Shown here: in pieces, positions 7,609-27,593 of the stretch
Layout of the letters: every line of letters begins with the position of its first letter
How positions within the stretch are numbered: position 1 is the stretch's first letter
Origin: a virus
Strand: one strand, 5' to 3'
DNA length: 28,120 nucleotides
Virus record (IMG/VR): IMGVR_UViG_3300006919_000315
Location: 1 to 28,120 of that record
Program-made: the position numbers and the translations under genes
Notes under the pieces: generated by a model
The model's database searches: none
The model's input: the letters and a program-made list of their open reading frames with translations, nothing else
What the model was told of the DNA's origin: nothing

Positions 7609-7657
7609 TGTAAATAGTTGCACAAAGTTGCAATATTTAGTATATTAACTATGTGGG
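7609..7657 (+). promoter_or_regulatory. Promoter/operator element, copy 1 (paired AGTTGCA boxes)
   Basis: This intergenic element recurs at 27545-27593, ungapped, with 39 of 49 bases identical. AGTTGCA occurs at 7616-7622 and again at 7626-7632, exactly 10 bases apart, so both boxes face the same side of the helix. A sigma70-like promoter fits: TTGCAC (7618-7623), a 17-base spacer, then TATATT (7641-7646), with transcription starting near 7653. The second box lies within the spacer, where a bound protein would block or alter polymerase binding. CTATGTGGG (7649-7657) is perfectly conserved near the start point. The downstream gene starts at ATG 7689 behind GGAGG. Promoter assignment is inference; the repeat itself is seen. 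Confidence 0.8.
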
Positions 7658-7688
7658 AAATGAAATTAACAACAAAAACGGAGGCAAA

Positions 7689-8102
7689 ATGATAACAGTA
7701 TTTCATGCAAACAAGTTTGGTGATAACACCAAGGGTTACACAAAAGTAGCGGAGGTTGATGTCGATACGATAAACGAGGCTTTTCAATTAACCAACAATA
7801 TTAACGGCTCTTGGTCAAGAGGTCCAGAGTTTGAGTTTGACGGCGATAAGATTGTTAATGGCGACTATGATCCAAGAATTAAGGTCACTACAGATCTTGT
7901 AATTAGCAAGAGAACTGGCGAGCCTATGGGTTTAAGATCTACTTCTAGTGGTGACGTTATTTTTGACAGCAGCAAGTATTGGTTCTTAGTTCCAATGGGT
8001 GCTGGCAGAACTGGTCCAATTTACAAAACTCATGGTGACACAGTTGCCATAGACAACTTTGATATTAACGGCTTTATTTACAACGAAAAGGAGGTTGCGT
8101 AA
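7689..8102 (+). CDS. Hypothetical protein, first gene of the island operon
   Basis: The product has 137 residues. A GTG further upstream (7653) is in frame but lies at the predicted transcription start and has no ribosome site. ATG 7689 has GGAGG at 7680-7684, so I choose it. The protein is polar and beta-rich: MITVFHANKFGDNTKGYTKV at the start, then GGC-rich turns and YWFLVPMGAGRTGPIYKTHG. It has no signal peptide, membrane segment or recognised motif. It is preceded by the paired-box promoter and overlaps the next gene (TAATG). A regulatory or metabolic early protein is possible, but I recognise no function. Confidence 0.85.
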   Translation: MITVFHANKFGDNTKGYTKVAEVDVDTINEAFQLTNNINGSWSRGPEFEFDGDKIVNGDYDPRIKVTTDLVISKRTGEPMGLRSTSSGDVIFDSSKYWFLVPMGAGRTGPIYKTHGDTVAIDNFDINGFIYNEKEVA

Positions 8103-8623
8103 TGATAGAGAATATAATTTACAATAAAGACTCAGCTGACAACGCAGTTGTGGTTGATGATTACCCTTGGGGTTATAAACTTAGAACCAAGAGAAAGTAT
8201 TGGATTGAAACAACTAAAAGAGGTGACAGACTTTGTTACCAGACTTTGAATCCAAAAACTGACAAGTGGTGCGCTGTTAAGAAAAGCACTTACAGCGGTA
8301 TCATGGTTCTTTATGAAAATGAAGATGGACATATTAAGACCATTGGATTAGATCCTCAGTGGTCTAAAGAAGAAGGACTTGCAAATTTTCTTAATTATGT
8401 TGATGAAACTAAGTTGACTGATGCACAAAGAGCTAAGATTTGTGAAACCAAGACAATTCATCATTGTCAGAAACTTGTAAAGGTTGAGTGTGAAATCAAT
8501 CCTCAAAGAACTCCAGAGGAACAAGCAAAACACGATGCTGAACAAAAAGAAATTAAAAACAAACTAAACAACTATGCTAATCATGTGTACAACAAATGTT
8601 TAGTAAAAAATGGTATAGCATGA
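8102..8623 (+). CDS. Hypothetical protein, second gene of the island operon
   Basis: The product has 173 residues. The ATG overlaps the preceding stop (TAATG) and has a strong AAGGAGG (8088-8094). The N-terminal half is beta-rich with many aromatics (YPWGYKLRTKRKYWIETTK, YSGIMVLYENEDGHI). The C-terminal half is helical and charged, with TPEEQAKHDAEQKEIKNKL. Five Cys are scattered without a zinc pattern. No membrane segment is seen. It is co-transcribed with the 137-residue protein and the HAD enzyme. Function unknown; a small DNA- or RNA-related accessory protein is only a guess. Confidence 0.85.
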   Translation: MIENIIYNKDSADNAVVVDDYPWGYKLRTKRKYWIETTKRGDRLCYQTLNPKTDKWCAVKKSTYSGIMVLYENEDGHIKTIGLDPQWSKEEGLANFLNYVDETKLTDAQRAKICETKTIHHCQKLVKVECEINPQRTPEEQAKHDAEQKEIKNKLNNYANHVYNKCLVKNGIA

Positions 8624-9132
8624 CACAAATAACTAAAATATTTGTTGATATGGACGGAGTGCTCGCTGATTTCGTGAGAGGAGTCGAGGGACCTAAATAC
8701 TTAAATGGTCCCTTGGTCAGCGAGCAAACCTATGACTCAAGAAAGATAGAGCTCAGTAACAGAGGTTTATTTAGAGATCTACCGATTATGCCAGGCATGC
8801 TTAAACTCATTAACTATATCAAAGAGTCTGGCATTGATTGGGAAATACTCACAGCTTCTGGCTCTTTAAACAGAACAGTAGTGACTAACGACAAAATCTA
8901 TTGGATAAGAAAACATGTAGATCCAAAAGTAATTATCACAGCAACCATAAAGGGCGAAGATAAAGCTGCTTTTGCAAGGCCTAGTCATGTTCTAATAGAT
9001 GACAGAAAATCAAATATCAAAGCCTGGACACAGGCTGGTGGTATCGGTGTTTTGCATAGAACCGCAGACGATACTATAGATCAACTAAAATCATATAAGC
9101 AACCTCCTGTTGCAGAGATACTCGCTCAGTAG
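8620..9132 (+). CDS. HAD-family 5'(3')-deoxyribonucleotidase-like hydrolase
   Basis: The product has 170 residues from ATG 8620, which overlaps the preceding stop (ATGA). An ATG at 8596 would add eight residues but lies deeper inside the upstream gene. Motif I is FVDMDGVLADF, with nucleophile Asp10 and acid/base Asp12. Motif II is ILTASGS (Thr79 or Ser80). A Lys near 112-115 could be motif III, and VLIDDRKSNI (Asp127, Asp128) is motif IV. The DxDGVLADF form is typical of the NT5C/YorS-like deoxyribonucleotidases, which dephosphorylate dNMPs. It could adjust the nucleotide pool early in infection. Substrate is inferred from motif type only. Confidence 0.85.
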   Translation: MTQITKIFVDMDGVLADFVRGVEGPKYLNGPLVSEQTYDSRKIELSNRGLFRDLPIMPGMLKLINYIKESGIDWEILTASGSLNRTVVTNDKIYWIRKHVDPKVIITATIKGEDKAAFARPSHVLIDDRKSNIKAWTQAGGIGVLHRTADDTIDQLKSYKQPPVAEILAQ

Positions 9133-9158
9133 TATTATCTAAGATGTAGAACTAATTG

Positions 9159-9179
9159 TTGCGGGCATGGTGTCCGCAA
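9159..9179 (+). other. Intergenic hairpin without T tract
   Basis: TTGCGG (9159-9164) pairs exactly with CCGCAA (9174-9179), extended by a G-T pair, around a seven-base loop. No T run follows, so it is not a typical intrinsic terminator. It lies between the end of the island operon and the next structural gene. It could be an RNA processing site or a weak stop. A promoter in this gap is also possible, but its boxes are poor. Confidence 0.4.
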
Positions 9180-9203
9180 TGGCTAATTTATAGGAGGCTG
9201 ATT

Positions 9204-9914
9204 ATGACTACACACTTTACTTCGGGTGTTACCAATGTTTCTTCTGACGGAACATTAGGTAAATTAAAAGCTCCCGCACCACACAAGTATCATTCATACT
9301 TTAATGATTTTGATACTTATTTAGCGTCCGATTGGACAATCACAACAACTGAGGATGGCACAGGATCCGCGACAGAGGCTTTAGCCGATGGCGATGGTGG
9401 TGTTTTGTTAGTAACAAATGCTGCTGGCGATAATGACCATGACTTTTTTCAGTTGGTAAAAGAAGGCTTTAAATATGAAAGCGGCAAACAGTTAGCGTTT
9501 CACGTTAGATTTAAAACTAACGATGCAACACAATCTGATATTGTTGCTGGTTTACAGCTTACTGATACTACACCATTAGATGTAACAGATGGTATCTTCT
9601 TTTTAAAATCAGATGGAGCTGCAACTATTAGCTTTATCGTTGAAAAAGATAGCACACAATCTACATTGACTTTGCCTAACTCATTGGCAGATGATACTTT
9701 TATGACTTTAGGTTTTGTTTATGATCCTAAAGATCAAAAGTTTCATGTGTATCAAAACAATGTATTAGCTGGCACAGTGGTTAGCACAAATGCTCCAGAT
9801 AACGAAGAACTAACAGTTTCTTTCGGTATTCAAAATGGCGCTGCTGCTGCAAAAACCTTGAGCGTAGATTACATTGGTGCACACAAAGAACGTACAGCTG
9901 TAACTGAGCTGTAA
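9204..9914 (+). CDS. Concanavalin A/jelly-roll-like virion protein
   Basis: The product has 236 residues. An in-frame start upstream at 9156 is rejected because AGGAGG (9192-9197) stands seven bases before ATG 9204. The protein is beta-rich throughout. Segments such as FNDFDTYLASDWTITTTEDG, QLAFHVRFKTN, GIFFLKSDGAATISFIVEKD and FVYDPKDQKFHVYQNNVLAG read as strands of a lectin/glucanase-like jelly roll. Such proteins are often head decoration or surface proteins in marine phages. Position after the capsid block fits this. Sugar-binding is possible but unproven. Confidence 0.7.
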   Translation: MTTHFTSGVTNVSSDGTLGKLKAPAPHKYHSYFNDFDTYLASDWTITTTEDGTGSATEALADGDGGVLLVTNAAGDNDHDFFQLVKEGFKYESGKQLAFHVRFKTNDATQSDIVAGLQLTDTTPLDVTDGIFFLKSDGAATISFIVEKDSTQSTLTLPNSLADDTFMTLGFVYDPKDQKFHVYQNNVLAGTVVSTNAPDNEELTVSFGIQNGAAAAKTLSVDYIGAHKERTAVTEL

Positions 9915-9924
9915 GGAGTAGATA

Positions 9925-10329
9925 ATGGCTGATACAGTAACAAGTCAGACTATCCAAGATGGTGAAAAAACAGCAATACTGAAATTCACCAACGAAAGCG
10001 ATGGCACCGGCGAGGCTTCCGTAAAAAAAGTTGATGTTTCTGCTCTAAGCAAAGACAGCAGAGGAAGATCTTGCAGTTCTGTATCTATATCAAGAATATA
10101 TTGGGCCTGTAGAGGCATGGGCGTTGACATTGAGTTTGACGCTAGTACCAATGTATTAGCGATACCATTACCTGCGGATAGCACAGGTGACGAATACTAT
10201 GATTTATTTACTGGTATTCCAAACAATGCAGGATCCGGGGTGACGGGTGATATAGACTTCACTACTGTTGCACACAGTAACGGCGATGCTTATTCGATTA
10301 TCTTGGTTTTAACTAAGAACTACTCATAA
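9925..10329 (+). CDS. Small beta-rich putative structural protein
   Basis: The product has 134 residues, starting at ATG 9925 behind AAGGAG. It begins ADTVTSQTIQDGEKTAILKF, reads as alternating strands, and ends IILVLTKNYS. A central segment, SISRIYWACRGMGVDIEF, is the most conserved-looking part. It is followed at once by a terminator, which suggests high expression, as for a virion protein. No motif identifies its exact role; decoration or head-tail joining are possible. Confidence 0.7.
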   Translation: MADTVTSQTIQDGEKTAILKFTNESDGTGEASVKKVDVSALSKDSRGRSCSSVSISRIYWACRGMGVDIEFDASTNVLAIPLPADSTGDEYYDLFTGIPNNAGSGVTGDIDFTTVAHSNGDAYSIILVLTKNYS

Positions 10330-10336
10330 ATACTAG

Positions 10337-10360
10337 GGCGGTCTTACGGCCGCCTTTTTT
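10337..10360 (+). terminator. Rho-independent terminator
   Basis: The stem GGCGGTC (10337-10343) pairs with GGCCGCC (10348-10354), with one G-T pair, around the loop TTAC. Six T follow. It is GC-rich against an AT-rich background and therefore strong. The next gene's ATG lies only four bases after the T run, so that gene needs readthrough or an unseen promoter. Confidence 0.9.
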
Positions 10361-10363
10361 GTT

Positions 10364-10660
10364 ATGGCATTAAAGAGTAAAAAAGATTCAAGATTAGCAA
10401 GAGCTGGAGTTAGTGGTTTTAATAAACCAAAAAGAACTCCAAAACATCCGACTAAATCGCATGTTGTAGTTGCTAAACAAGGTGACAAAATAAAAACAAT
10501 TAGGTTTGGACAGCAAGGAGCTAAAACAGCTGGTAAACCAAAGGCAGGCGAGTCCCGCAAAACAAAAATGAAAAGAAAATCATTTAAAGCTAGACATCGT
10601 AAAAATATACAAAAGGGAAAAATGTCGGCAGCATATTGGGCTGACAAGGTGAAATGGTAA
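10364..10660 (+). CDS. Small basic hypothetical protein (RFGQQG...AAYWADKVKW type)
   Basis: The product has 98 residues and is very basic. The sequence reads GFNKPKRTPKHPTKSHVVVA, then IKTIRFGQQGAKTAG, and ends KMSAAYWADKVKW. This combination is a small family I recognise from many marine phages and some giant viruses, without a known function. The ATG lies directly after the terminator and has no Shine-Dalgarno sequence; the next in-frame ATG (10568) would delete the conserved part. High charge suggests nucleic acid contact, possibly inside the capsid. It starts a cassette of five basic genes. Confidence 0.8.
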   Translation: MALKSKKDSRLARAGVSGFNKPKRTPKHPTKSHVVVAKQGDKIKTIRFGQQGAKTAGKPKAGESRKTKMKRKSFKARHRKNIQKGKMSAAYWADKVKW

Positions 10661-10661
10661 T

Positions 10662-11126
10662 ATGGCTAAAAAGAAATTAAACAAAGTTATTAAGGGTTTG
10701 AAAAAGGCCAGTAAAACTCATGCAAGTCAAGCTAAAACGCTTGAATCAATCAAGATGAAAAAAGGTGGTGGTGCTAAATCCAAAACACCAGATAACGTAG
10801 CTAATCCATCTATTTATGCAAGAGCTAAAGCTAAAGCAAAAGCAAAGTTTGACGTATATCCGTCGGCTTATGCAAATGCTTATATGGTTTCAGAATACAA
10901 AAAAATGGGCGGTAAATACAAAGGTGCTAAGAAAAAAGCTGCTGGCGGTGAAATGAGTTTAAAACCGATACCGGCTGAAAACAAAGGATTACCAAAACTA
11001 CCAAAAAAAGTTAGAAACAAAATGGGTTTCATGCAAGCTGGTGGTGCTGTGAAAATGGTCCAGGGCAGAGGTTGTGGCGCTATGATGCAAAGCAAACGTA
11101 AGAAAACAAGAGTGCCGAGCGCTTAA
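10662..11126 (+). CDS. Basic Gly/Lys-rich protein with PSxYxxAKxKAKxKF...PSAYANAYMV motif
   Basis: The product has 154 residues. The N-terminus is Lys-rich. The core NPSIYARAKAKAKAKFDVYP then SAYANAYMVSEYKKMGGKY (about 48-86) is a motif seen in many marine phage and giant-virus proteins. The C-terminal part has FMQAGGAVKMV, then RGCGAMMQ and a basic tail. KKGGG and AAGGEM are also present. Function unknown; the charge suggests interaction with DNA. It overlaps the next gene by one base (TAATG). Confidence 0.8.
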   Translation: MAKKKLNKVIKGLKKASKTHASQAKTLESIKMKKGGGAKSKTPDNVANPSIYARAKAKAKAKFDVYPSAYANAYMVSEYKKMGGKYKGAKKKAAGGEMSLKPIPAENKGLPKLPKKVRNKMGFMQAGGAVKMVQGRGCGAMMQSKRKKTRVPSA

Positions 11127-11416
11127 TGAAAAAGAAAAAAGATCCGAGGGTAGGTACAGGTAAAAAACCCAAAGGATCTGGCAGAAGGCTTTACACGGAT
11201 GAAAACCCAAAAGATACAGTTAGTATTAAATTTAAAACCATGAAAGACGCTACTGCTACAGTAAATAAAGTAAAAAGAATCTCAAAACCTTTTGCTAGAA
11301 AAATACAAATATTAACTGTTGGCGAGCAAAGAGCTAAAGTTATGGGAAAAACAAGCATAGCTAATATATTTAAAAAGGGTAAAGAACAAATTAGGAAAGC
11401 TCATGGCAAAAAGTAG
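11126..11416 (+). CDS. Small basic hypothetical protein (GTGKKPKGSGRRLYTDE type)
   Basis: The product has 96 residues, with KDPRVGTGKKPKGSGRRLYT near the start and KISKP..ARKIQILTVGEQR-like spacing in the middle: VKRISKPFARKIQIL and TVGEQRAKVMGKTSI. It ends with a basic helix. I recognise this family from marine phages, with unknown function. It starts by TAATG overlap with the previous gene. Co-occurrence with the other four basic genes suggests a shared role. Confidence 0.8.
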   Translation: MKKKKDPRVGTGKKPKGSGRRLYTDENPKDTVSIKFKTMKDATATVNKVKRISKPFARKIQILTVGEQRAKVMGKTSIANIFKKGKEQIRKAHGKK

Positions 11417-11717
11417 CGGCGGACTTACTGAGTGGTTTAAGCAAGACTGGGTAGACATCGGAGCACCAAAAAAAGGTGGTGGCTTCAAAAAGTGTGGCAG
11501 ATCAAAACAAAAAGCAGATGCCAAAAGAAAATACCCAAAATGCGTGCCAGCTGCAAAAGCTGCTAGCATGAGCAAAAAACAAATTAAATCAGCGGTAAGA
11601 AGAAAACGATCCAAAAAACAAGGTGTTGGCGGTAAACCAACCAACGTCAAAACTTTCGCTGCAAAAGGTGGTATGATAAAATCAAAACCTAATATGGGTT
11701 TATATGGCAGGAGCTAA
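11403..11717 (+). CDS. Small basic hypothetical protein (GGLTEWFKQDWVDI / YPKCVPAAKA type)
   Basis: The product has 104 residues. It starts at ATG 11403, inside the previous gene by 14 bases, behind AGGA. The N-terminus SSGGLTEWFKQDWVDIGAPK, then KKCGRSKQ, YPKCVPAAKAASMSKKQIKS and GVGGKPTNVKTF form a family pattern I recognise from marine phages and giant viruses. Two Cys (KKCGR, PKCVP) could bind a metal, but two alone are few. It ends with an AAKGGMIKSKPN segment that resembles the next gene's repeats. Function unknown. Confidence 0.8.
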   Translation: MAKSSGGLTEWFKQDWVDIGAPKKGGGFKKCGRSKQKADAKRKYPKCVPAAKAASMSKKQIKSAVRRKRSKKQGVGGKPTNVKTFAAKGGMIKSKPNMGLYGRS

Positions 11718-11720
11718 ATT

Positions 11721-12011
11721 ATGAAAAATTCTAAATATATGGCTAAAGGCGGTGCAATGAAAGGCACAAAATATATGTCTATGGGTGGAGCAGCAAAATC
11801 AGAAATGAAAGCTAATCCAGGCATGGGTAAAATGCCTAAATCAGTTGTAGCAGCACTTGAAGGTGTCGGTACTAGAGCACAAGGTCAAGCTAATGTTTTG
11901 AAAGGTGCAAAAGGCATGGCTAAAGGCGGTGCTATGAAAGGTACAAAATACAAAGCAGGTGGTGGCGCTATGAAAGGTACAAAATATAGAGCTAAAGGCG
12001 GAAAGGTTTAA
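11721..12011 (+). CDS. Repeat protein of KGGAMKGTKY units
   Basis: The product has 96 residues, made largely of short repeats: KYMAKGGAMKGTKYM, then MAKGGAMKGTKYKAGGGAMK and GTKYRAKGGKV. It is rich in Lys, Gly, Met and Ala and is probably disordered. AGGAG (11709-11713) precedes the ATG. The middle (NPGMGKMPKSVVAALEGV) is more ordered. No known function. The GG-hydrophobic pattern recurs in nearby genes and in the large ejection-type protein at 18038. Confidence 0.75.
   Translation: MKNSKYMAKGGAMKGTKYMSMGGAAKSEMKANPGMGKMPKSVVAALEGVGTRAQGQANVLKGAKGMAKGGAMKGTKYKAGGGAMKGTKYRAKGGKV
11742..11987 (+). repeat. Three 33-base coding repeats
   Basis: Units at 11742-11774, 11919-11951 and 11955-11987 encode AKGGAMKGTKY (AGGGAMKGTKY in the third). 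They differ at a few, mostly third, codon positions. The last two are in tandem with a period of 36 bases; the first is separated by a unique segment. Third-position drift means selection on the peptide, not the DNA. Confidence 0.85.
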
Positions 12012-12031
12012 CACCTTGTATATTAAATTAA

Positions 12032-12724
12032 GTGGCGTATTTAATATCAAACATACCGCAGTTTAAGTGCTGGGTTAGAAAAGAATTTACCGCAAATCAT
12101 CAAAACTATCATGGTGAGTATTTGCATGCTTTGGCTATAGCTGTAAATACAATTCCAGATAGATCTTTATCATTTCAAGTAGTTTTTACAGGATGCGAAA
12201 TAGATAGCGAAGAAGACGCTCCAAATGTTCATGGTGGCGCTATGTGGGCTCGAATGCCTATTCAAGCACTTGTAGCAGATATACCTCTTCAAGAATGGCC
12301 AACTCCAATGGAAGATCATTTAGCTCAACCTTGGGACTGTCTTAGCCATCATCATAGCGTTGTAGTTTTAGATCGTGTTAGTTCTAGTCCTTGGTACTGT
12401 AAGATTGATGGCGAGTTTTACCTGGGTAAATACATGTTTACAGTAGATTACACCGAACATTCTATTGCAGATGATCCAGCACAACACAAACAATCGCATG
12501 TGCTATACTTGACGGACGCTGGTCCTTATACTGGCAATTTTGTTGCATTACCAAATAATCGTGTAAGAGCAACGAATCCAGCGCTGTGGCGAACAGGAGA
12601 GGGTGCTCCAGATTTTGCACCTTCGCAATGGGTTCACTCAGCAGAGCAGCACGAGAGCTATACAGATCCGACAATTACATTTGACAATTTGTACGCTCCA
12701 CAAGAAGATATAGATGAGGAATAG
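12032..12724 (+). CDS. Conserved tail-module hypothetical protein, GTG start
   Basis: The product has 230 residues. The start is GTG 12032; no ATG lies near it and the ribosome site is weak. It is soluble and aromatic-rich, with LSFQVVFTGCEIDSEEDAPN, HGGAMWARMPIQALVADIP and QPWDCLSHHHSVVVLDRV. The last has three adjacent His, which may bind a metal. SHVLYLTDAGPYTGNFVALP follows. This pattern is familiar from marine phage tail clusters, without a known role. A cysteine pair (C53 region and PWDCL) is noted. Position at the head of the connector genes suggests a virion or assembly protein. Confidence 0.75.
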   Translation: MAYLISNIPQFKCWVRKEFTANHQNYHGEYLHALAIAVNTIPDRSLSFQVVFTGCEIDSEEDAPNVHGGAMWARMPIQALVADIPLQEWPTPMEDHLAQPWDCLSHHHSVVVLDRVSSSPWYCKIDGEFYLGKYMFTVDYTEHSIADDPAQHKQSHVLYLTDAGPYTGNFVALPNNRVRATNPALWRTGEGAPDFAPSQWVHSAEQHESYTDPTITFDNLYAPQEDIDEE

Positions 12725-12726
12725 TT

Positions 12727-13422
12727 ATGGCAACATCTGGAAGTAAAGATTTTGAGCTAGACGTAGCTGATTACGTTGAAGAGGCTTTTGAGCGTTGTGG
12801 CATAGAGTTGCGCACTGGTTACGATCTTAAAAGCTCTACAAGAAGTCTGAACTTAATGCTTGCAGAGTGGGCAAACAGAGGTTTGAACCAATGGTCTATT
12901 AAAGAAAAAACAGTAGACATGGTTAAAGATACCAAAACCTACAACATAGACAGCACTAATGCTACGGCACCTATTGATGTGTTAGACGTGTTTATAAGAG
13001 AAACTGTTGGATCAGATGCTACTGATATACCTATGACCAGGCTTAGTAGAGCTGAGTACGCACATATCACAACAAAATCTACTACAGGCAAACCCAACCA
13101 ATTTTTTATTAATAAACAATTAACACCGACTATTTCGGTTTGGCCAGCGCCAGACAAGTCAAGCACCTACACAATACACATGAACGTCCTAACAAGAATG
13201 GACGACGCAGACGCAGGAGCGAACACGCTTGACCTACCATTTAGGTTTTATCCTTGTTTGGCAGCTGGTCTTGCATATTACTTATCATTAAAAAGAGCAC
13301 CAGAGAGAACACAAATGTTAAAAGCCTTGTACGAAGAAGAGTTTGCAAGAGCTTTAGCACAAGACGAAGATCGTGCATCTTTTAGAGTTTCACCAAGTTT
13401 GAGGAGTTATAACAACGCATAA
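12727..13422 (+). CDS. Putative head-tail connector / P22 gp4-like tail accessory protein
   Basis: The product has 231 residues. It begins with FELDVADYVEEAFERCGIEL and TRSLNLMLAEWANRGLNQW, the usual helical entrance of gp4-like connectors. A beta region follows (ISVWPAPDKSSTYTIHMNVL), then helices ending LKALYEEEFARALAQDEDRA. This arrangement fits ring proteins below the portal in P22-type podoviruses. It precedes a probable adaptor and a tail nozzle gene, in the expected order. Whether it is the exact gp4 equivalent is unproven. Confidence 0.7.
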   Translation: MATSGSKDFELDVADYVEEAFERCGIELRTGYDLKSSTRSLNLMLAEWANRGLNQWSIKEKTVDMVKDTKTYNIDSTNATAPIDVLDVFIRETVGSDATDIPMTRLSRAEYAHITTKSTTGKPNQFFINKQLTPTISVWPAPDKSSTYTIHMNVLTRMDDADAGANTLDLPFRFYPCLAAGLAYYLSLKRAPERTQMLKALYEEEFARALAQDEDRASFRVSPSLRSYNNA

Positions 13423-13733
13423 TGGCTTTTGCATCTGGTAAATTTTCTTACGGCATCTGTGATATAACAGGGTTTCGCTATAAATTAAAAGACATGCGTA
13501 AAACCTGGGATGGCTTATTAGTTGGTCCAGATCAGTGGGATCCTAAACATCCACAGCTTATGCCGAAACCATCTACTCAAGATCCGCAAGCTGTTAAAGA
13601 TCCTAGACCAGATACCAGTGACGACAATGCAAAATTTTTGGTTTATACCAATGTGGGCGATGGTAAATTAGGCTCTGTATTAGATACTTTTTCAATCACG
13701 GCAGGCGTAGGTGAGGTTACAATAACGACATGA
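13422..13733 (+). CDS. Small conserved tail-module protein (CDITGFRYKLKDM...HPQ type)
   Basis: The product has 103 residues. The start overlaps the previous stop by one base (TAATG). It contains YGICDITGFRYKLKDMRKTW then GLLVGPDQWDPKHPQLMPKP. The 'CD.TGFRY......W.GLLV....WD.KHPQ' pattern is a small family I recall in podovirus tail clusters. Function unknown; possibly a connector component. No membrane segment or signal. Confidence 0.75.
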   Translation: MAFASGKFSYGICDITGFRYKLKDMRKTWDGLLVGPDQWDPKHPQLMPKPSTQDPQAVKDPRPDTSDDNAKFLVYTNVGDGKLGSVLDTFSITAGVGEVTITT

Positions 13734-14374
13734 GTTTTACACTAGGCACATTAAAAACAGCAATACAAGATTACTTAGAGGTATCTGAGTCAACTTTTAC
13801 AACTCAGCTGCCTACCTTTATAAAAGAAGCAGAAGATCGTATTTTTTCTTTTGTGCAATTACCAGAGCAACGTAAAAATGTCCAAGGCACAGTAACCACT
13901 GGCAATAGGTTTCTAGCTACACCAACAGATTTTTATTCACCTATGAGTTTGGCTATTATCAGCTCAGACACATACGATTACTTAGATTTTAAACACCCAT
14001 CATTTATCAAAGAGTATTCTTCTGGAACGACAAGAGCAACTCCAAAATATTATTCTTTATTTGATGACACAGCTTTTGAGGTTTCGCCTATCCCGGATGC
14101 GGATTACACAGTGGAACTTCATTATTTACATAAACCAGTATCTCTTACCAATGGTAGTGACAGCGGTACAACTTTTTTATCTACAGATTATCCGGACGCT
14201 TTGCTGTACGGATCTTTAGTAGAAGGAGCTATCTTCCTTAAAGAACCTACAGACGTCGTTACTCAGTTAGAGGCACGATTTAAGGAGGCGGTAGCTAGAA
14301 TGAAAAATATCTCAGAAGGTCGTGGCACACGCGACGAATATCGGTATGACTCAGTACGCTCCAATGTGAGCTAA
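13730..14374 (+). CDS. Putative tail adaptor protein
   Basis: The product has 214 residues. It starts with a helical segment (FTLGTLKTAIQDYLEVSEST, LPTFIKEAEDRIFSFVQLP). A beta part follows (FEVSPIPDADYTVELHYLHK), then a helix (TQLEARFKEAVARMKNISEG), ending RDEYRYDSVRS. This helix-beta-helix layout fits the adaptor ring proteins between portal and tail nozzle (the SU10-type adaptor is the comparison I have in mind). The ATG overlaps the previous stop (ATGA). Fold identity is inference from the pattern. Confidence 0.65.
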   Translation: MSFTLGTLKTAIQDYLEVSESTFTTQLPTFIKEAEDRIFSFVQLPEQRKNVQGTVTTGNRFLATPTDFYSPMSLAIISSDTYDYLDFKHPSFIKEYSSGTTRATPKYYSLFDDTAFEVSPIPDADYTVELHYLHKPVSLTNGSDSGTTFLSTDYPDALLYGSLVEGAIFLKEPTDVVTQLEARFKEAVARMKNISEGRGTRDEYRYDSVRSNVS

Positions 14375-20188: not shown

Positions 20189-20190
20189 TT

Positions 20191-22191
20191 ATGGGTTTGT
20201 TAAGTAATTTAAAAGCTAGGTTTGACAGAGCGGGCATACGTCCGAACGTTACTATAACACCAAAATTAACACCATCGCTTCCTCGTGAACCTGCGATTGA
20301 ATTGCCTAAAATACCAAGGCGTCGAATAGGATTGCCACCAAGAAACATTGGTAGAATAAGAGAAGATGTTGGAGGTATTGTTGAAAGGTCTTTACCTGTT
20401 GGCGAGCCAATACCATTCGTGCCGCCAACAATACAACCAGATCCAATGCCTATTGCAAGTCCTATGCCCATGCCTATACAACAACCCATAGCGACAGAAC
20501 CGCTAGAGCGAATAGATATGCCCAACAAAAGAGATTTCATGTCTATTGAAAGATTGCCAAATAATTTTGCAACGCCCATACAAATAGATGTGGGTGGTCC
20601 AGCACTTGCACCTGCTCCTCCAAGATTGGATCCCATAAAGTCAGCAGCAATGCCAATAGAAGATGTAGTTATAAATGTACCACCAGTATCAGATATGCGG
20701 GCTAGACTGCCTATTGCTAGACCAATATTACGAAAAGAAGATATTGTTCCCATAAGACCAAGAGAAGAATTAATTGATGCGGGTGTAATAGCACCTCCAC
20801 AACTACCACCTAAACGTGATGATTTCATGTCAATTCAAGGTCCATTTAACACGGAAGGACAACAGATTACAGTACCACCTGTTGATAATAATCCACCTAA
20901 ACAGGATGAAGTATTTTTAGCAAATCCAGCTCCAGTGACACAACCAGAGCCAGTAACACAACCAGAGTCTACAACTGTAGCGGCTAATCAACCTACAGAA
21001 ACAACGGCACCTGTAAATGTATCAAATCAAGATCCTTTTGCTAGTAGCGTAAGACAAGTAGCTTCCGGGTTAGATCCACTTACAGAACAATTATTGTTTG
21101 GCATTGGTGGAAAAGGCGGATTCATTCCAGGAGCTATGCGAGCTGCTGAGAGAACTTTTTATGATGACGAGGGTAATCCTATTGTCATTGATGAGAAAGT
21201 TGCAGGGTTTAGTCCAGATCAGATGGCCGCTATGCAAATGCAAAGAGATGCTCTTGGTTTACAAGATCCTTATTTACAACAAGCAGCTGGAGCTTATGGT
21301 GCTGGCACACAAGCATTAGAAGAAGGCTTACAAAGAGGCAGAACCGCTGCTCTTGGATCTTTGGCTGCTACGACCGGTGGTGTAGGCTCATTACAAGCTG
21401 GATTAGGTGAGTCAGCAGATATTCTTAGAGGAACTATGGGTGGTTATGATCCGAGCATGACCAGTAGATTTTACGATCCTTTTGAAGACAGAGTAGTACA
21501 ACAAACCATACAAGATGTTATGGAGCAAGGCGCAAAAGCTGATATTGGAGCTTTGGCTGGCGATATTGCAAGAGGCGGTCAGTCTGCATTTGGCTCTAGA
21601 GCGCGTTTAGGCGCCGCAGAGCGACAAGAAGCTTTAGGAAGGGGATTATCAGAAGCACTTAGCGGAATACGCTCAAGAGGCTTTACAGAAGCTCAGAGAA
21701 CAGGTTTAGGAGAGTTTGCTCGTCAAAAAGCAGCAGAACGAGCTGTATCTGGCGGTTTAGCTGGATTAGCTGGTCAAGGATTTGGTGGATCGCAAGCGTT
21801 AGCAGGTGCTCTTAGCGGATTAGGACAAACCGAACAAAACATAGGGCAGCAAAGATTTAAAGGTCAGTTTGGTCTTGGAAGTAGTTTACAAGGCCTAGGA
21901 GCGCAGGCAGCAGGCGCATCCGCATCTGACATAGCTGCTCTTTATGGCATGGGCACACAACAACAAGGACAGGCCCAGCAAATGTTAGATGCTCAACGTA
22001 GAAACTTACAACAAAGACAAATGACTCCGTTGCTACAGTATCAAGCGTTACAACCATTTGTAAGCATGGCACCAGCTGGTCAGTTCCAAACTATCACAGA
22101 TTTTACACCTAGACCGAGTGCAATGATGACAGGTATTGGTACAGGTTTACAGGCATTTGGTTCTTTGGGTAATCTGTATGGAGGAAAGTAG
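20191..22191 (+). CDS. Pro-rich internal virion / ejection-type protein
   Basis: The product has 666 residues. The N-terminal 280 are Pro-rich and disordered, with a duplicated KRD(D)FMSI segment near residues 113 and 208 and a short PVTQPEPVTQPES repeat. From about 290 it becomes helical and Gly/Ala/Gln-rich. A distinctive part is SRFYDPFEDRVVQQTIQDVM, then ARGGQSAFGSRARLGAAERQ. That central helical motif is familiar from podovirus injection proteins. No catalytic lysozyme motif is seen. The next gene starts with GTG inside its stop (TAGTG). Confidence 0.65.
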   Translation: MGLLSNLKARFDRAGIRPNVTITPKLTPSLPREPAIELPKIPRRRIGLPPRNIGRIREDVGGIVERSLPVGEPIPFVPPTIQPDPMPIASPMPMPIQQPIATEPLERIDMPNKRDFMSIERLPNNFATPIQIDVGGPALAPAPPRLDPIKSAAMPIEDVVINVPPVSDMRARLPIARPILRKEDIVPIRPREELIDAGVIAPPQLPPKRDDFMSIQGPFNTEGQQITVPPVDNNPPKQDEVFLANPAPVTQPEPVTQPESTTVAANQPTETTAPVNVSNQDPFASSVRQVASGLDPLTEQLLFGIGGKGGFIPGAMRAAERTFYDDEGNPIVIDEKVAGFSPDQMAAMQMQRDALGLQDPYLQQAAGAYGAGTQALEEGLQRGRTAALGSLAATTGGVGSLQAGLGESADILRGTMGGYDPSMTSRFYDPFEDRVVQQTIQDVMEQGAKADIGALAGDIARGGQSAFGSRARLGAAERQEALGRGLSEALSGIRSRGFTEAQRTGLGEFARQKAAERAVSGGLAGLAGQGFGGSQALAGALSGLGQTEQNIGQQRFKGQFGLGSSLQGLGAQAAGASASDIAALYGMGTQQQGQAQQMLDAQRRNLQQRQMTPLLQYQALQPFVSMAPAGQFQTITDFTPRPSAMMTGIGTGLQAFGSLGNLYGGK

Positions 22192-23006
22192 TGGCTATCA
22201 GCAGAGCACAAATACCAGAGCAAGTAGACATATTTGAAGAAGGCGGAGGCGTAGGTGACGTTGCTTCTTCTTTGACGCCAGAGGATATTATTGCTTTGTA
22301 CGGCGCACAAACTAACGCACCAATCACAGCAGCAGATATTCAAGCACAAGCAGCAGAAATGTCTGGTTTGTTTCCAGAGCCAAAAAAACAAAATATTTAT
22401 GATTTAGCATCTGCTGTAGGCGCAGGTTTGGTTGGAGCTGCCTCAGATCCGCGTGGATTAGGTGCTGGCCTTACTGCTGGCTTTCAATCATTTAATGAAA
22501 GAGCAAAGAAAATACAAGCAGAAAAAGATGCTATAAAACAACAAATGACTATGCTTGCGTATGAACAAGTGCAAGCCAAACGAAAAGAGCAAGCTGAAAC
22601 CTCTAACGAAGTTTTAAAAATGCAATTTAAAGCAGCTTTAGAGGGAAACGAAGGCGTTAGCTTTGGTAATTCAGAAAGAGGCAAGGCTTTAGCTTTTATA
22701 GCAGCAGCAGAGCGAGATCCGTCCTTAAAAACGATACCAGATCCGGAAAATCCTGGACAAATGATACCAAACCCAGATTACACAATAGCTGTTGCAATCG
22801 CTAAACAAGAAAGAATTGTTAATACAGATGAGGGTGCAATAAGAGTGCCTGGCATAGATATAGATACTATTTTTCCAAATGTAAATACATTACAGCCTAG
22901 GATTGTAGATGGAGTAGAATACACGCCTGTAGCTGGCGAAACAGAAAAAGATACAGGCAAACAAATTTACATGACTCCCGATGGCAAAAAGGTGGTATTA
23001 GACTAA
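22191..23006 (+). CDS. Putative internal virion protein, GTG start
   Basis: The product has 271 residues from GTG 22191, which overlaps the preceding TAG. It begins MAISRAQIPEQVDIFEEGGG. A helical region (KKIQAEKDAIKQQMTMLAYE) and a beta C-terminus (RIVDGVEYTPVAGETEKDTG) follow. The opening MAISRAQ is also the opening of the capsid protein at 6597. The coil region suggests an elongated internal protein. It overlaps the next gene by one base (TAATG); the two may act as one unit. No enzymatic motif. Confidence 0.7.
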   Translation: MAISRAQIPEQVDIFEEGGGVGDVASSLTPEDIIALYGAQTNAPITAADIQAQAAEMSGLFPEPKKQNIYDLASAVGAGLVGAASDPRGLGAGLTAGFQSFNERAKKIQAEKDAIKQQMTMLAYEQVQAKRKEQAETSNEVLKMQFKAALEGNEGVSFGNSERGKALAFIAAAERDPSLKTIPDPENPGQMIPNPDYTIAVAIAKQERIVNTDEGAIRVPGIDIDTIFPNVNTLQPRIVDGVEYTPVAGETEKDTGKQIYMTPDGKKVVLD

Positions 23007-23620
23007 TGCAACAAGTAAGAGAGATAGGCGAAGATCAAATACTTAGGGAGGGTGAAACACCACCAATAATTGCAGGTACAAAACCTAAAAAAAGTCCTTA
23101 CACTGAAACACAGAACAAAGCAGCTACATTTGCCTTGCGTATTGAAAAAGCCGTAAAACAAATAGAAGATTTAGAAAATGCTGGTTTTAATCCAGTCAAT
23201 ATGCGTGATTTTATTGTAAACGAAGTTATACCTTTTACACCAAAAGCTGTTGATAACTTTTTTAGCAGTCCCGAATACAAACAATATATGAGAGCTAGAA
23301 ATGATATTGCGACCGCTCAGTTAAGGTTTGAGTCTGGTGCGGTTATTGGTGAAAGTGAAGTTCAGTGGATAGATTTAACTTACTTTCCGGAATTTGGCGA
23401 TGACCAACAAACTATTTTAGATAAAAGAGAAGCAAGAAGAAGCGCTTTATCTAACATGATTGGAATTGCTGGTGGCGCATACGATGAGTTAAAAGAAAAA
23501 GCAAAGACAAATGAATATGGTTTTGAACAAGAATCAGCTTTGGATGAACTAAAAAAAAGAGCTGAAAACGATCCAGAGCTAAAACAAAGATTAATTGAAA
23601 AAGGTTTGATTGATGAGTGA
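23006..23620 (+). CDS. Putative internal virion protein with ESGAVI..E.....YFPE..D motif
   Basis: The product has 204 residues. It contains YKQYMRARNDIATAQLRFES then GAVIGESEVQWIDLTYFPEF, followed by DDQQTILDKREARRSAL. This 'R.ESGA.I...E......YFP..GD....I..K...R' pattern is one I recall at the C-terminus of internal or ejection proteins in many proteobacterial podoviruses. The ATG overlaps the upstream stop (TAATG). The C-terminus is a charged coiled coil. It may be the second half of a protein split from the 22191 gene. Confidence 0.7.
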   Translation: MQQVREIGEDQILREGETPPIIAGTKPKKSPYTETQNKAATFALRIEKAVKQIEDLENAGFNPVNMRDFIVNEVIPFTPKAVDNFFSSPEYKQYMRARNDIATAQLRFESGAVIGESEVQWIDLTYFPEFGDDQQTILDKREARRSALSNMIGIAGGAYDELKEKAKTNEYGFEQESALDELKKRAENDPELKQRLIEKGLIDE

Positions 23621-26054
23621 TAGTAGAAAAAATACTTACGAAACATTAGAAGACAGCGCTTTAATTGAAATGGCGTTAGGCTCTAATGTAGTCGACAGAG
23701 AAAATGCCTATGAAGATATGCTCATTGAAAAGCTATCTTTAGAAAAAATAAAAAGCGGTATAGATAGAACCACAGGTGCTCCAAGTAATGTAAGGTTTAG
23801 TGTTGGAGCTGCTCAGAGTCCAGAAGATAAATTAGCTACACTCCAAGTATTTTATCCAGACGCTATGCGTGTAGAGGACTTAGATCCACAAAACGGAGCT
23901 ATGGAGTTTGGTTATGGCAACTTTGCTTTTACCAATCCCGAAACAGGAAAGCTAACTTTATATGATGAATTTAATCCAAAGTTTTTAGGCATACCGATAC
24001 CAACAGGTAGAGATTTTCTTGATGCTGGTCCAGAGGTAGCAGAAACAGCAGGAGCCATTGGCGGTTTGATTGGCGGCGGTCTTGCTGGAGCTGGAGCAGG
24101 ATCTTTAGCTTTGCCTGGAGGCGGTACTATTAGTGGTGGTGTTGCTGGTGCCATAGCAGGAGAGGGTTTAGGATCTGCGACAGCAAGAGAGTTATACATA
24201 GGTATTGCAGATGTTTTTGGCGAAACAGTAGATACTAGAAATCTTGGTGAAAGAGCAGTAGATTTTACACAAACAGCTACATTCAATGCTGCTGCTGGGC
24301 CAATACTTAGCAAGACTTGGCAGGGTATTAAATATGTAGGTGGTCAACCTATAAGATATATGACAGGTGGTACCTCACCAGCAGCCAAAGAAACTTTAGA
24401 AGCGTTTGATTCAGTAGGCATAACAAACCCAACAGCAGGACAGATTACCAGTAATCCAACTTTAAATTTAATTGAAGAAGGTTTAAGTGCCATGCCTACC
24501 TCCACAAAAGTTATGCACCAAAACGCTGCTCAAACTGTTGCTGAAATTGATACCTTTGCTAAAGAGTTAGCAAAAAAATATGGAGGTATTAGGACTACAG
24601 ATGAAGCTGGTTTAGCTTTAATGACAGGTGCTAGAGCAGCAAGACAAAGATATACCAACACAATAGACCAAATGTATAACAAGGTAAACATTGGATTAAA
24701 CCAAGACATTTCTTCACAAGCAAAACACACACAAGAATTTGTTAAAAAATATATAGCGCAATCTAAAACTGCAACTGGTGAAGATACACTAAAGCCCGTT
24801 ATGGAAATGGCAGCAAAAGTTTTAGCAGATGCCGACGCAGGTGTTTTAAATTACAACAACCTTAAAAACTTTAGAACTTATTTAAGAGAAAATTTAAGCT
24901 CTGCAACAGCAGCCGGTGCTAAATTAGATGCAACTGGAACTAAAATGAAAGAGCTCTACGGCTATATATCTTTAGATCTTGGGGATTTAGTAGAAGAGGC
25001 TGGCAATGATGTTTCTAGGCTTGCTTTTAGAGAGGCCAATGAATATGTTGCAAAAATGCAGGGTGACGTTGGTGCTATTACATATTTAGATAATGTAATT
25101 GCTAAAGGCGATGTAACTGCAAACAAAGCGTTAAAGTATGTTTTGACTGGCGCTAAAGATGGTGGCGATGACTTATTAAGACTTAAAGAGGTTCTGAAAC
25201 CAGATGAATACAATGTCATGTCGGGTTATATGCTTGGTAGGATGGGCATGCCAACTCCGGGTGTATCGCAAGGTGTTGAGCTTGGAGCAGAGGGCGTTGT
25301 AAAAGAGGGTGCTGAATATATAGCCGAGCAAGGATTCTCACCAAAAAGATTTCTTACTAATTGGAACTCTTTAAGTAAAGAGGCCAAAGAAGCATTATTC
25401 AAAGGAACTGAGTACGAAGATCTTATACCAGAATTAGATAATTTGGTATTTACAGTAGATAAAATAGGCCTTGCAGCACAACAAATGGCAAATCCAAGTG
25501 GTACTGCTAGAGTTGCAGGCACAATAGCTTACTTTACTGGGGGTTTAGGTGGTGGCGCTGGTGTTAGCTACGACTTTGGGTTAGGCGCATTAGCTGCACC
25601 TTATATGAGCGCTAGACTAATGACTAACAAAAATTTTGTGCGATGGCTAACAGAAGGTTTAGAAAAAACAGCTTACGATCCAGAAAGCTATGGGCAACAC
25701 ATTAGAAGGCTTTATCAAATCTATGAGCTAAACCCAGAGATTAGAGAAGAGGTCAGAGCAATACTTGAAGGACAACAATTTGAAACACTAGAGCCGATTG
25801 AAGACAGAAATGCTGCTAATGTGCCACCTGTTACTACAGCTGTTCCGAATGAGCAATCTTTTAGAGAGGTTACAAATCCAGAGATTGCTGGCAAACTTTT
25901 ACCAGATGTAGAGCTTGCAGAACAAGTGGTTGGGTTTGAAGCACCACAGGTTAGTAATCCAGAAGTTATTATGTCGCCAACAGTTTTACCAGATGAAGCA
26001 GACAGAGAGATTGCTATGCGTCAACAAGCCGGTGGGATTGGTTCTCTAGGGTAA
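23613..26054 (+). CDS. Large putative DNA-ejection protein
   Basis: The product has 813 residues from ATG 23613, inside the previous gene by eight bases. A TTG directly before it is an alternative. Residues 144-200 are Gly/Ala-rich and hydrophobic (ETAGAIGGLIGGGLAGAGAG then SLALPGGGTISGGVAGAIAG), like membrane-inserting parts of ejection proteins. The middle is mostly helical (ARAARQRYTNTIDQMYNKVN, LKNFRTYLRENLSS). Another Gly-rich stretch lies near 640-665. The C-terminal 110 residues are acidic and Pro/Val-rich. Last and longest of the four-gene ejection group. No lysozyme or peptidase motif recognised. Confidence 0.65.
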   Translation: MSDSRKNTYETLEDSALIEMALGSNVVDRENAYEDMLIEKLSLEKIKSGIDRTTGAPSNVRFSVGAAQSPEDKLATLQVFYPDAMRVEDLDPQNGAMEFGYGNFAFTNPETGKLTLYDEFNPKFLGIPIPTGRDFLDAGPEVAETAGAIGGLIGGGLAGAGAGSLALPGGGTISGGVAGAIAGEGLGSATARELYIGIADVFGETVDTRNLGERAVDFTQTATFNAAAGPILSKTWQGIKYVGGQPIRYMTGGTSPAAKETLEAFDSVGITNPTAGQITSNPTLNLIEEGLSAMPTSTKVMHQNAAQTVAEIDTFAKELAKKYGGIRTTDEAGLALMTGARAARQRYTNTIDQMYNKVNIGLNQDISSQAKHTQEFVKKYIAQSKTATGEDTLKPVMEMAAKVLADADAGVLNYNNLKNFRTYLRENLSSATAAGAKLDATGTKMKELYGYISLDLGDLVEEAGNDVSRLAFREANEYVAKMQGDVGAITYLDNVIAKGDVTANKALKYVLTGAKDGGDDLLRLKEVLKPDEYNVMSGYMLGRMGMPTPGVSQGVELGAEGVVKEGAEYIAEQGFSPKRFLTNWNSLSKEAKEALFKGTEYEDLIPELDNLVFTVDKIGLAAQQMANPSGTARVAGTIAYFTGGLGGGAGVSYDFGLGALAAPYMSARLMTNKNFVRWLTEGLEKTAYDPESYGQHIRRLYQIYELNPEIREEVRAILEGQQFETLEPIEDRNAANVPPVTTAVPNEQSFREVTNPEIAGKLLPDVELAEQVVGFEAPQVSNPEVIMSPTVLPDEADREIAMRQQAGGIGSLG

Positions 26055-26058
26055 GGTT

Positions 26059-26310
26059 ATGGCCCGCAACTACGCGCAGAAATATGCAAACTATCATTCT
26101 CGACCAGAGCAAATAAAAAGAAGATCCTCACGCAACAAAGCAAGACGCCTGGCTATCAAGGCAGGCAAGGCAAAAGTCGGCGATGGCAAAGACATTCATC
26201 ATAAAGACGGCAACCCTTTGAATAATAAAAATGGTAATTTAAGATCTATGAATAAAAGCAAAAATAGATCTTTTGCTCGGACTAAAACGGCTCGAAAGAA
26301 AAGAGTTTAG
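26059..26310 (+). CDS. Small HNH-like protein lacking the final histidine
   Basis: The product has 83 residues and is very basic. The core DIHHKDGNPLNNKNGNL (45-61) matches the HNH pattern of phage homing nucleases (H47 H48, then N55 N56 and N60). The third His, normally near 'THSEN', is replaced by MNKSKN (64-69). The rest is Lys/Arg-rich. It could be a small nicking enzyme with altered chemistry, or a DNA-binding relic. It starts five bases after the ejection gene, without a clear Shine-Dalgarno site, and its stop overlaps the convergent minus-strand gene. Confidence 0.75.
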   Translation: MARNYAQKYANYHSRPEQIKRRSSRNKARRLAIKAGKAKVGDGKDIHHKDGNPLNNKNGNLRSMNKSKNRSFARTKTARKKRV

Positions 26311-26552
26311 TTTGACGCCTCAGAAGCTCGTATAATCGCTCCTACGACCTCATAATCAAAGTCATAACCCATGTGGCTATCCTCACCTATAACTACCTCT
26401 AAGTTGCGAGATATGAGCCGCATAAGAGCTGCTTGTTGGTGTAAGGTAAGTCTGCTAAATACGTCAATAACTTCTTGGGCCTCTAATACCGGTTTATACG
26501 ATTGAGGTTTTGGTTTGTCTGGTTTGGACATCTTGTTTTTAAATATGTTCAT
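26307..26552 (-). CDS. Minus-strand hypothetical protein
   Basis: The product has 81 residues from ATG 26552, or 74 from ATG 26531, which lies just after the upstream stop. Neither has a good ribosome site. It opens with a Lys/Pro-rich part (KPDKPKPQSYKP), then an amphipathic helical region (EAQEVIDVFSRLTLHQQAAL). It ends acidic (DFDYEVVGAIIRASEASN). It is co-directional with, and directly downstream of, the ribbon-helix-helix gene, so it probably shares that transcript. Function unknown; a regulator partner is possible. Confidence 0.65.
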   Translation of the reverse strand: MNIFKNKMSKPDKPKPQSYKPVLEAQEVIDVFSRLTLHQQAALMRLISRNLEVVIGEDSHMGYDFDYEVVGAIIRASEASN

Positions 26553-26739
26553 GTTCGGATAAGCTCATAAGTCTTTTGTGTTCTTTCTGTATCAATACTT
26601 TGAGCTGATCTATCTTAGATCTGTGCTCCATATCGCAAATTGATTGCAGAAGATCATAAGTAGCTGGATCAACAGCCAAACTTTTCCTTATTTCTTTTCC
26701 GTCTTTTTTATGGTCCATATTGTCTAAGTCTGTATTCAT
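26539..26739 (-). CDS. Ribbon-helix-helix-like candidate transcription regulator
   Basis: The product has 66 residues from ATG 26739. A TTG at 26787 is upstream in frame, but a TATAAT box on this strand (26772-26767) would then lie inside the gene. Residues 17-23 (IRKSLAV) fit the beta strand, 24-37 (DPATYDLLQSICDM) fit helix A, HRSK the turn, and 42-55 (KIDQLKVLIQKEHK) helix B of the Arc/MetJ fold. Such proteins bind paired short boxes as dimers. It stands 0.8 kb from the paired AGTTGCA boxes at 27552. The link is inference. The downstream gene starts inside its 3' end. Confidence 0.65.
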   Translation of the reverse strand: MNTDLDNMDHKKDGKEIRKSLAVDPATYDLLQSICDMEHRSKIDQLKVLIQKEHKRLMSLSEHEHI

Positions 26740-26766
26740 TTGGTTAATTCTATAACTTTTAGCACA

Positions 26767-26772
26767 ATTATA
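26767..26772 (-). promoter_or_regulatory. Minus-strand -10 box (TATAAT)
   Basis: On the minus strand the sequence reads TATAAT, a perfect sigma70 -10 hexamer, about 28 bases before ATG 26739. No good -35 lies 16-18 bases upstream. It supports the shorter start of the ribbon-helix-helix gene. Alone, an AT-rich hexamer is weak evidence. Confidence 0.45.
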
Positions 26773-26794
26773 CAAATAAATATTCAAATTTATC

Positions 26795-26803
26795 TGATAT
26801 ACT
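26795..26803 (+). promoter_or_regulatory. Extended -10 promoter directly before the oxygenase ATG
   Basis: TGATATACT is an extended -10 (TG, one base, TATACT), ending seven bases before the A of ATG 26811. Transcription would therefore start at or next to the initiation codon, giving a leaderless mRNA. No Shine-Dalgarno sequence is present, which agrees. No -35 is recognisable, as allowed for extended -10 promoters. Confidence 0.5.
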
Positions 26804-26810
26804 AAAAACC

Positions 26811-27524
26811 ATGTATCAACTAAAAAATTACTTACTGAGCATGCAGTCGCATTGGATGATTAACCATACGACATATAAGGCTGTCCAAGACACTTTGCCA
26901 GACATAGTAAAGTTTAAAGGTCAGCAGGGTATGGAGGATATGGGCAAAACTCCAATACACAAAGTTATAAAAAAGATACATCCAGAAATATATCGAGTGC
27001 CTTTGTTTCGCCGCAAATTTTGTTCTATGTTAATCAACGAAATTGAACACATGAAAAAAGAAATACCATTTGAGGCTAATACAGATGAGGACCAGCTGCG
27101 CCAAATACCAGAGATTGTATTGCGTGAACATGTCCCGGAGTTATATCGCAGCATGTGGTTTGTGGTACAAAGCGTACTCAACCCTATGTTCAATGCGATA
27201 TGGCAAAGAGATTGTAAAGATCCGTCAACGATACAAATAGCTAACTATAATCTCAAAGATAAGAAACAAGGTGCTTGGCACCATGACGAAAGCGCTGATA
27301 TTTCGGTGGTTGTGCCGCTCAATACTGGTAAGTATAAAGGCGGTGGCACCGCGTTTCACAACTACGGCGAAATAAGTCCGTTGCCAACGGGCCATGCGTT
27401 GATTTTCCCAAGTTTCATCAATCTGCATAAGGGCCTGCCAGTCGAAAGCGGTGATAGATACCTGTTGGTTTTTTGGCTACATGATCGTCAAAGAATCATA
27501 GAATTGTACGAAAACTACCTCTAA
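26811..27524 (+). CDS. 2-oxoglutarate/Fe(II)-dependent oxygenase
   Basis: The product has 237 residues. The C-terminal half has the double-stranded beta helix pattern: iron ligands H157 and D159 in GAWHHDES, the distal H206 in FINLHKGLP, and R216 in GDRYLLVFWL, which should bind 2-oxoglutarate. The N-terminal 130 residues are helical and unlike known motifs. Enzymes of this family hydroxylate proteins or nucleic-acid bases; the substrate here is unknown. Such genes are common in marine phages. The gene seems to be expressed from its own promoter, lies divergent from the ribbon-helix-helix gene, and has no ribosome site. The start ATG 26811 is supported by the -10 placement. Confidence 0.85.
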   Translation: MYQLKNYLLSMQSHWMINHTTYKAVQDTLPDIVKFKGQQGMEDMGKTPIHKVIKKIHPEIYRVPLFRRKFCSMLINEIEHMKKEIPFEANTDEDQLRQIPEIVLREHVPELYRSMWFVVQSVLNPMFNAIWQRDCKDPSTIQIANYNLKDKKQGAWHHDESADISVVVPLNTGKYKGGGTAFHNYGEISPLPTGHALIFPSFINLHKGLPVESGDRYLLVFWLHDRQRIIELYENYL

Positions 27525-27544
27525 AAATAACTGTTATTATTGTC

Positions 27545-27593
27545 TGTAAATAGTTGCATATAGTTGCAACTTATGGCATTATATCTATGTGGG
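27545..27593 (+). promoter_or_regulatory. Promoter/operator element, copy 2 (paired AGTTGCA boxes)
   Basis: This is the second copy of the element at 7609-7657. AGTTGCA lies at 27552-27558 and 27562-27568, again 10 bases apart. The second box extends to a perfect palindrome, AGTTGCAACT (27562-27571). A promoter can be read as TTGCAT (27554-27559), a 17-base spacer, then CATTAT (27577-27582). CTATGTGGG (27585-27593) is conserved exactly, at the same distance as in copy 1. The gene downstream starts at ATG 27628 behind AAGGAGGG. Confidence 0.8.

Follow-up and report, generated by a model that had tools for sequence, protein, structure and literature searches.

Three-box promoters at two cargo slots of a marine podovirus group, with a ribbon-helix-helix protein as candidate regulator

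Several of the known systems closest to the one considered here are built on small ribbon-helix-helix (RHH) proteins that act at promoters. In phage P22, Arc represses the ant promoter and shuts off an early operon. The antitoxin RelB represses its own promoter (PMC2812701), and ParR of plasmid R1 autoregulates from repeats flanking its promoter (references in PMC5016525). For the abundant marine phages that remain uncultured, little is known about promoters and their regulators; the paper on the HTVC023P-type group does not contain the word "promoter" (PMC9599517). Here we analyse 28,120 nucleotides of viral DNA (positions 1 to 28,120 of IMG/VR record IMGVR_UViG_3300006919_000315; hereafter the window), which resemble HTVC023P-type pelagiphages and related podoviruses in the gene order around terminase, capsid and stabilisation protein, but differ in that the stabilisation protein is about 30-38% identical. 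The window, a genome fragment like many of its relatives, carries two copies, 20 kb apart, of a 49-base element that a first-pass annotation, made from the letters alone, had read as the promoter/operator of a phage-specific regulon, in which two operons answer to one factor. The reading that we favour, with a probability of roughly 0.6, is that an RHH repressor encoded by the phage governs its own gene together with two cargo operons whose genes can be swapped, through promoters carrying three boxes each.

Promoters overlaid with a three-box array

The repeated element is not a product of chance. Positions 7609-7657 and 27545-27593 align without a gap at 39 of 49 bases, as had been reported; each copy holds two AGTTGCA boxes (starting at 7616 and 7626, and at 27552 and 27562) whose distance of 10 bases runs from start to start, leaving a gap of 3 bases, and CTATGTGGG stands at the matching offset in both (7649 and 27585). 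The by-eye impression that isolated AGTTGCA words occur elsewhere in the window (16 matches), but no further pair at this spacing, also survives a systematic count: the exact pair AGTTGCANNNAGTTGCA is found twice in the window and not once in 300 runs of first-order Markov surrogates. AGTTGCA is the sole heptamer of the window with more than one tandem of period 10, a situation that never arose in 200 such surrogates.

Both copies are intergenic, and both are followed by an A/T-rich leader, the Shine-Dalgarno sequence GGAGG and an ATG (7689 and 27628). Their layout makes it well supported that they are sigma70-type promoters overlaid with an operator-like array of three boxes sharing the core TRYA. 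Each has the predicted parts of such a promoter in order, that is, a -35 inside the first AGTTGCA, a spacer of 17 bp (16-18 bp being the range for this class), a -10 of the TAnnnT type and the Shine-Dalgarno sequence downstream, with hexamers that match at 4-5 of 6 positions. The three boxes, of which AGTTGCA is the commonest word, follow one another at exact steps of 10 bp: an upstream box, the -35 box and a spacer box. The upstream box, weaker and one turn away, had escaped the first-pass annotation. On the left (plus strand, like the right site) it reads GTATGTA (7606-7612) and is followed by box 1 (7616-7622), which holds the predicted -35 TTGCAC (7618-7623), by box 2 (7626-7632) within the spacer, and by the predicted -10 TATATT (7641-7646), 17 bp past the -35 and also picked up by a consensus scan; CTATGTGGG, the leader and the Shine-Dalgarno sequence occupy 7649-7688, with a predicted +1 near G7653, and are kept through the Shine-Dalgarno sequence in relatives. 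The right site has GTCTGTA (27542-27548), box 1 (27552-27558) with the predicted -35 TTGCAT (27554-27559), box 2 (27562-27568) again in the spacer, the predicted -10 CATTAT (27577-27582) at the same 17 bp, and CTATGTGGG, leader and Shine-Dalgarno sequence at 27585-27627, with a predicted +1 near G27589. The roles first given to these parts are amended accordingly: the first AGTTGCA would double as the -35, the second would lie between -35 and -10, and CTATGTGGG is the predicted start region and not a box. An earlier placement of the -10 at TATGTG, beyond the second box and with a spacing of 16 bp, was dropped, since columns 25-30 from the start of the first box read YATWWT in 32 unique seed sites, with A2 and T6 nearly invariant, and fit a -10 whose -35 is the first box.

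The array was followed in intergenic DNA gathered from relatives, 3' of their oxygenase gene and 3' of their capsid gene. Across 20 cluster representatives of the cargo promoters (less than 80% identical), the TRYA core stands at offsets 19/20, 29/30 and 39/40 in 90%, 100% and 95% of cases, the first figure being that of the upstream box, and the core is paired at distance 10 in 40 cases, where shuffling gives a mean of 1.2 and a maximum of 4. The words themselves vary among relatives (AGTTGCA, ATGTGCA, ACTTGCA, TTCTGCA, TCCTACA, TTATGCA) under a constant 10-bp period, as in L205 (GTTTGCA/AGTTGCA/ATTTGCA) and L199 (ATGTGCA/ACTTGCA/TTCTGCA). When the two sites of a single genome, left and right, are compared, identity is 83% in the array but 44% in the spacer tail and 39% in the -10, which makes the array the component that the two sites share. 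Box 2 sits in the spacer, a stretch whose individual bases sigma does not read, and the conservation of this box therefore points to another protein.

Two slots and their changing cargo

An exact scan of IMG/VR with AGTTGCANNNAGTTGCAN{14,18}TATG returned 89 stretches and, except for a few chance matches, these yield a single cassette, TTATTGTGTGTAAAT-AGTTGCA-NNN-AGTTGCA-(16 bp)-CTATGTGGGAA-leader-GGAGG-ATG. A position matrix built from the 32 unique sites matched the fetched loci 114 times and reversed controls not once. The element is conserved in related phages, with 87 unique three-box sites in IMG/VR: 51 lie on the right, after the 2OG-oxygenase gene, and 33 on the left, after the capsid gene, the upstream DNA of the other 3 being too short for placement, so that all 84 placeable sites fall after the capsid-gene terminator or after the oxygenase gene. 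Loci found by motif alone split 22/14/3 (right/left/unplaced), the placeable ones all in the same two slots, and the pattern is therefore not caused by fetching relatives via their capsid or oxygenase genes. Nor is the three-box pattern strewn over coding sites, since each large relative has it at the two slots only, against 0.0-0.1 occurrences expected from controls. A relaxed-core scan for two boxes also matches coding DNA, for example at position 4072 of the window (minus strand) and at its counterpart in relatives; three boxes, and not two, are therefore diagnostic.

Across 84,980 genomes of bacteria and archaea (257 Gb), the exact two-box-plus-TATG pattern was matched 3 times against about 7.5 expected for random sequence. 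A pattern at or below chance in cells fits the "phage-specific" of the first-pass annotation, and literature searches found no account of this motif. The proposed two-operon regulon is supported by this conservation and by the absence of the three-box pattern from random coding sites, two points on which it could have failed; it is amended in having three boxes instead of two and a probable third member, the promoter of the likely regulator itself, and control by one factor is the probable reading.

The left slot begins at an intrinsic terminator 3' of the major capsid gene (7556-7577, plus strand; an 8-pair stem, then a T run), placed identically in left-slot relatives and directly before the promoter. 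Its cargo operon (7689-9132, plus strand) consists of two genes of unknown function (7689-8102 and 8102-8623) and a 5'-3' deoxyribonucleotidase (8596-9132). In several relatives the insert is absent and the terminator is followed by the next structural gene, so the left slot has the form of a moron, an insert with its own promoter between genes that are adjacent in relatives. Beyond the left cargo, a hairpin at 9156-9182 (plus strand) has no T run and reads as part of the leader (9156-9203) of the structural gene at 9204, relatives having similar leaders. The right cargo operon (27628-28120, plus strand) holds two further unknown genes, 27628-27924 and one that starts at 27924 and runs past the end of the window. 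The first genes downstream of the promoters belong to 40 small-gene families, 4 of them found in both slots. No Rfam family was found in the window.

Some relatives show further variation at these slots. Records G003 (L176) and G002 (L182) have the promoter twice within the left, post-capsid slot, at a distance of about 480 bp, and in the first copy of G002 both strong boxes read AATTGCA, as if altered together. Record G003 also encodes, at about 759-4005 of L177, proteins resembling, by eye, a set for curli secretion (CsgG-like, CsgA-like repeats, FecR-like), and such a set has been reported for pelagiphages (PMC9599517).

The candidate regulator and its promoter

A predicted RHH gene (26539-26739, minus strand; 66 amino acids from the ATG at 26739), our proposed regulator, lies directly before the oxygenase gene, on the opposite strand. 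Fifteen of the 17 large records have a single copy of it, the other two being partial contigs whose oxygenase region was not seen in searches. RKSLAVD, the N-terminal strand of the protein, hardly varies. The AlphaFold model (mean predicted local distance difference test score, pLDDT, 83.9) has an extended N-terminal segment and helices at 18-31 and 35-57, which is the beta-alpha-alpha topology that RHH proteins form within about 45-60 residues, with the strand visible, in the monomer, only as an extended segment. The top Foldseek matches are nearly all RHH proteins (Arc first, then MatP, CopG, AmrZ, ParG and antitoxins), at a probability of up to 0.99, and Pfam RHH_1 is matched weakly in 3 of 31 members (best E 0.03). 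Membership in the RHH fold is thus supported by the predicted structure, without a significant sequence match. No relatives of the protein were found among 50,697 annotated phage records. The same operon contains a conserved partner gene of 81 amino acids (26307-26552, minus strand), with the core LTLHQQAAL.RLISRN in relatives; its function is unknown, and sequence-family and fold searches gave no match, toxin-like ones included.

The main reason for preferring the RHH protein as binder of the boxes is that an array in the same register lies at the promoter of its own gene, an opposite-strand site (26747-26777, minus strand) that had also been missed at first. It has boxes ATTTGTA (26771-26777) and TTGTGCT (26761-26767), a predicted -35 TTGTAT (26770-26775) and a predicted -10 TAGAAT (26747-26752), with the ATG 7 nt past the -10. 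All 57 sequences share the -35/17/-10 geometry, with TTGTA or something close to it as -35, 17 bp and TAnnnT. Eighteen of 21 representatives have a TRYA core one helical turn past that of the -35, compared with 11% (99/916) of other TTGnA/YAnnnT sites in these loci. On sequence layout, then, the gene looks like that of an autoregulated RHH protein, its putative operator overlapping its promoter. Most of these promoters have 6-8 nt between the -10 and the ATG, which predicts a leaderless messenger.

The divergent 2OG-oxygenase gene also appears to be leaderless: in the stretch 26795-26811 (plus strand), which is kept in close relatives, an extended -10, TGATATACT, ends 7 nt 5' of its ATG (26811). 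Elsewhere, a two-box promoter precedes an apparently leaderless gene of 77-78 amino acids at about 9716 of L177 (plus strand) and about 12039 of L186 (minus strand; MEEFNTLYFTWEEGP... / MAKETLFFTWEDGP...), a possible additional member of the regulon beyond the window.

Repression, its alternatives and known systems

In the scenario that we propose, the RHH protein would bind the boxes as dimers placed side by side along the same face of the helix, at successive turns over the -35 and the spacer, and would thereby exclude sigma from the -35. Much as Arc does at ant, it would limit its own expression once enough had been made, and the two cargo operons would be shut off following an early burst. 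Their promoters serve as fixed docking points, one behind the capsid-gene terminator and the other behind the oxygenase gene. What carries the proposal can be read in the genomes: promoter geometry, three-box period, conservation, two slots, cargo turnover and linkage to the RHH gene. From these, the RHH protein is most likely the binder. That the effect is repression, with the timing described, is also what we hold most likely, repression being the weakest step; it is favoured because the promoter hexamers seem adequate unaided.

Several observations weigh against this scenario. The Foldseek E value is about 0.1, which is not unusual for such a short chain, and a PDB profile search with the protein gave no RHH chain, so that the fold assignment depends on topology and on the weak RHH_1 matches. 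The RHH gene is a neighbour of the right site, and their co-occurrence is therefore partly synteny. The second box of the window's own RHH promoter is imperfect (TTGTGCT). In a distant clade (L263, L265 and L266) the boxes lie farther upstream of the -10, beside a TAGACA -35, which means that the geometry of the array is not universal. Finally, RHH proteins can also activate, AmrZ being an example (PMC3325190).

These last two points bear on the alternative that survives best, in which the promoters and the protein are the same and the RHH protein is an activator, helping polymerase at a weak -35 (TTGCAN, 4/6) for later cargo expression. The -35 hexamers are indeed imperfect, and in the distant clade, where the RHH protein has diverged, the array lies upstream or at the edge of the -35, a common position for activators. 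Against it, the spacer box is placed where a bound protein would usually clash with polymerase, good -10 elements at 17-bp spacing leave no obvious need for an activator, and the RHH gene's own promoter shares a box layout typical of autorepression. We consider activation unlikely, if the most serious of the competitors.

Next comes a host factor that would bind the boxes, for example a response regulator of the OmpR/PhoB type; that family also uses direct repeats of 10-11 bp over the -35, and repeats spaced by a turn of the helix across this element are its usual layout. The chance-level counts in cellular genomes make a host factor less likely, and the RHH promoter, whose gene is so regularly present in the large records, has the same layout; we think this explanation unlikely too. 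Plain sigma70 promoters and leaders, kept alike by the homologous recombination that swaps cargo and whose boxes have no regulator, would account for conservation that extends through the leader to the Shine-Dalgarno sequence and ends at the gene, and for cargo that differs widely and is partly shared between the slots. Recombination alone does not explain why second and third boxes keep an exact 10-bp period despite drifting words, why the same layout recurs at the RHH promoter, although no exchanged cargo lies behind it, or why spacer tail and -10 differ between slots and the array does not, and we regard it as improbable. Promoters of a phage-encoded, T7-like single-subunit RNA polymerase, usually recognised by an extended conserved motif that recurs at the heads of operons, were rejected as very improbable, since PF00940 (RNA_pol) was unmatched in the 17 large related records (possibly incomplete; the same search was positive in a T7-like phage, E 2e-109) and a sigma70 -10 fits the sites.

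A bolder reading takes in the whole group: these widespread, uncultured marine podoviruses would keep two universal docking sites, in which three-box promoters read by one RHH protein put any new small gene at once under timed phage control, as a plug-in regulon, while the words evolve and the helical spacing stays fixed; to this we give even odds. With a conserved operator tied to a probable regulator, and with no fewer than 40 families of small genes, mostly unknown, in its two slots, the system would in any case be of practical use: the cargo plausibly comprises host-takeover or counter-defence genes, to which the motif is a direct route in metagenomes, and the drifting boxes with their fixed period are a natural data set for the evolution of RHH operators.

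Compared with known systems, the arrangement differs from each in some respect. Like P22 Arc, the top Foldseek match, the candidate is a small phage RHH protein with its putative operator inside a promoter; unlike Arc, which has two half-sites, it would face three direct boxes at 10 bp and have as targets two distant cargo operons besides its own gene, and identity is too low for a profile match. With the plasmid autorepressors CopG, ParR and ParG it shares an RHH gene with direct repeats over its own promoter, autoregulation being here proposed, but its sites are at phage cargo operons and not at a centromere, and no obvious ParM/ParA motor gene was seen in the open reading frame lists of two relatives, no systematic motor search having been made. 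RHH antitoxins such as RelB are likewise among the Foldseek matches and resemble it in that the short RHH gene overlaps a second small gene, whereas the partner here has no toxin-like sequence or fold match and the proposed targets include unlinked operons. The left slot, with its terminator, own promoter and cargo between structural genes, absent in many relatives, is like a phage moron, except that one promoter type serves all cargo, is tied to a probable phage regulator and is confined to two fixed slots. Taken together, the system resembles the autorepression of Arc or CopG, as if applied to moron-like cargo slots.

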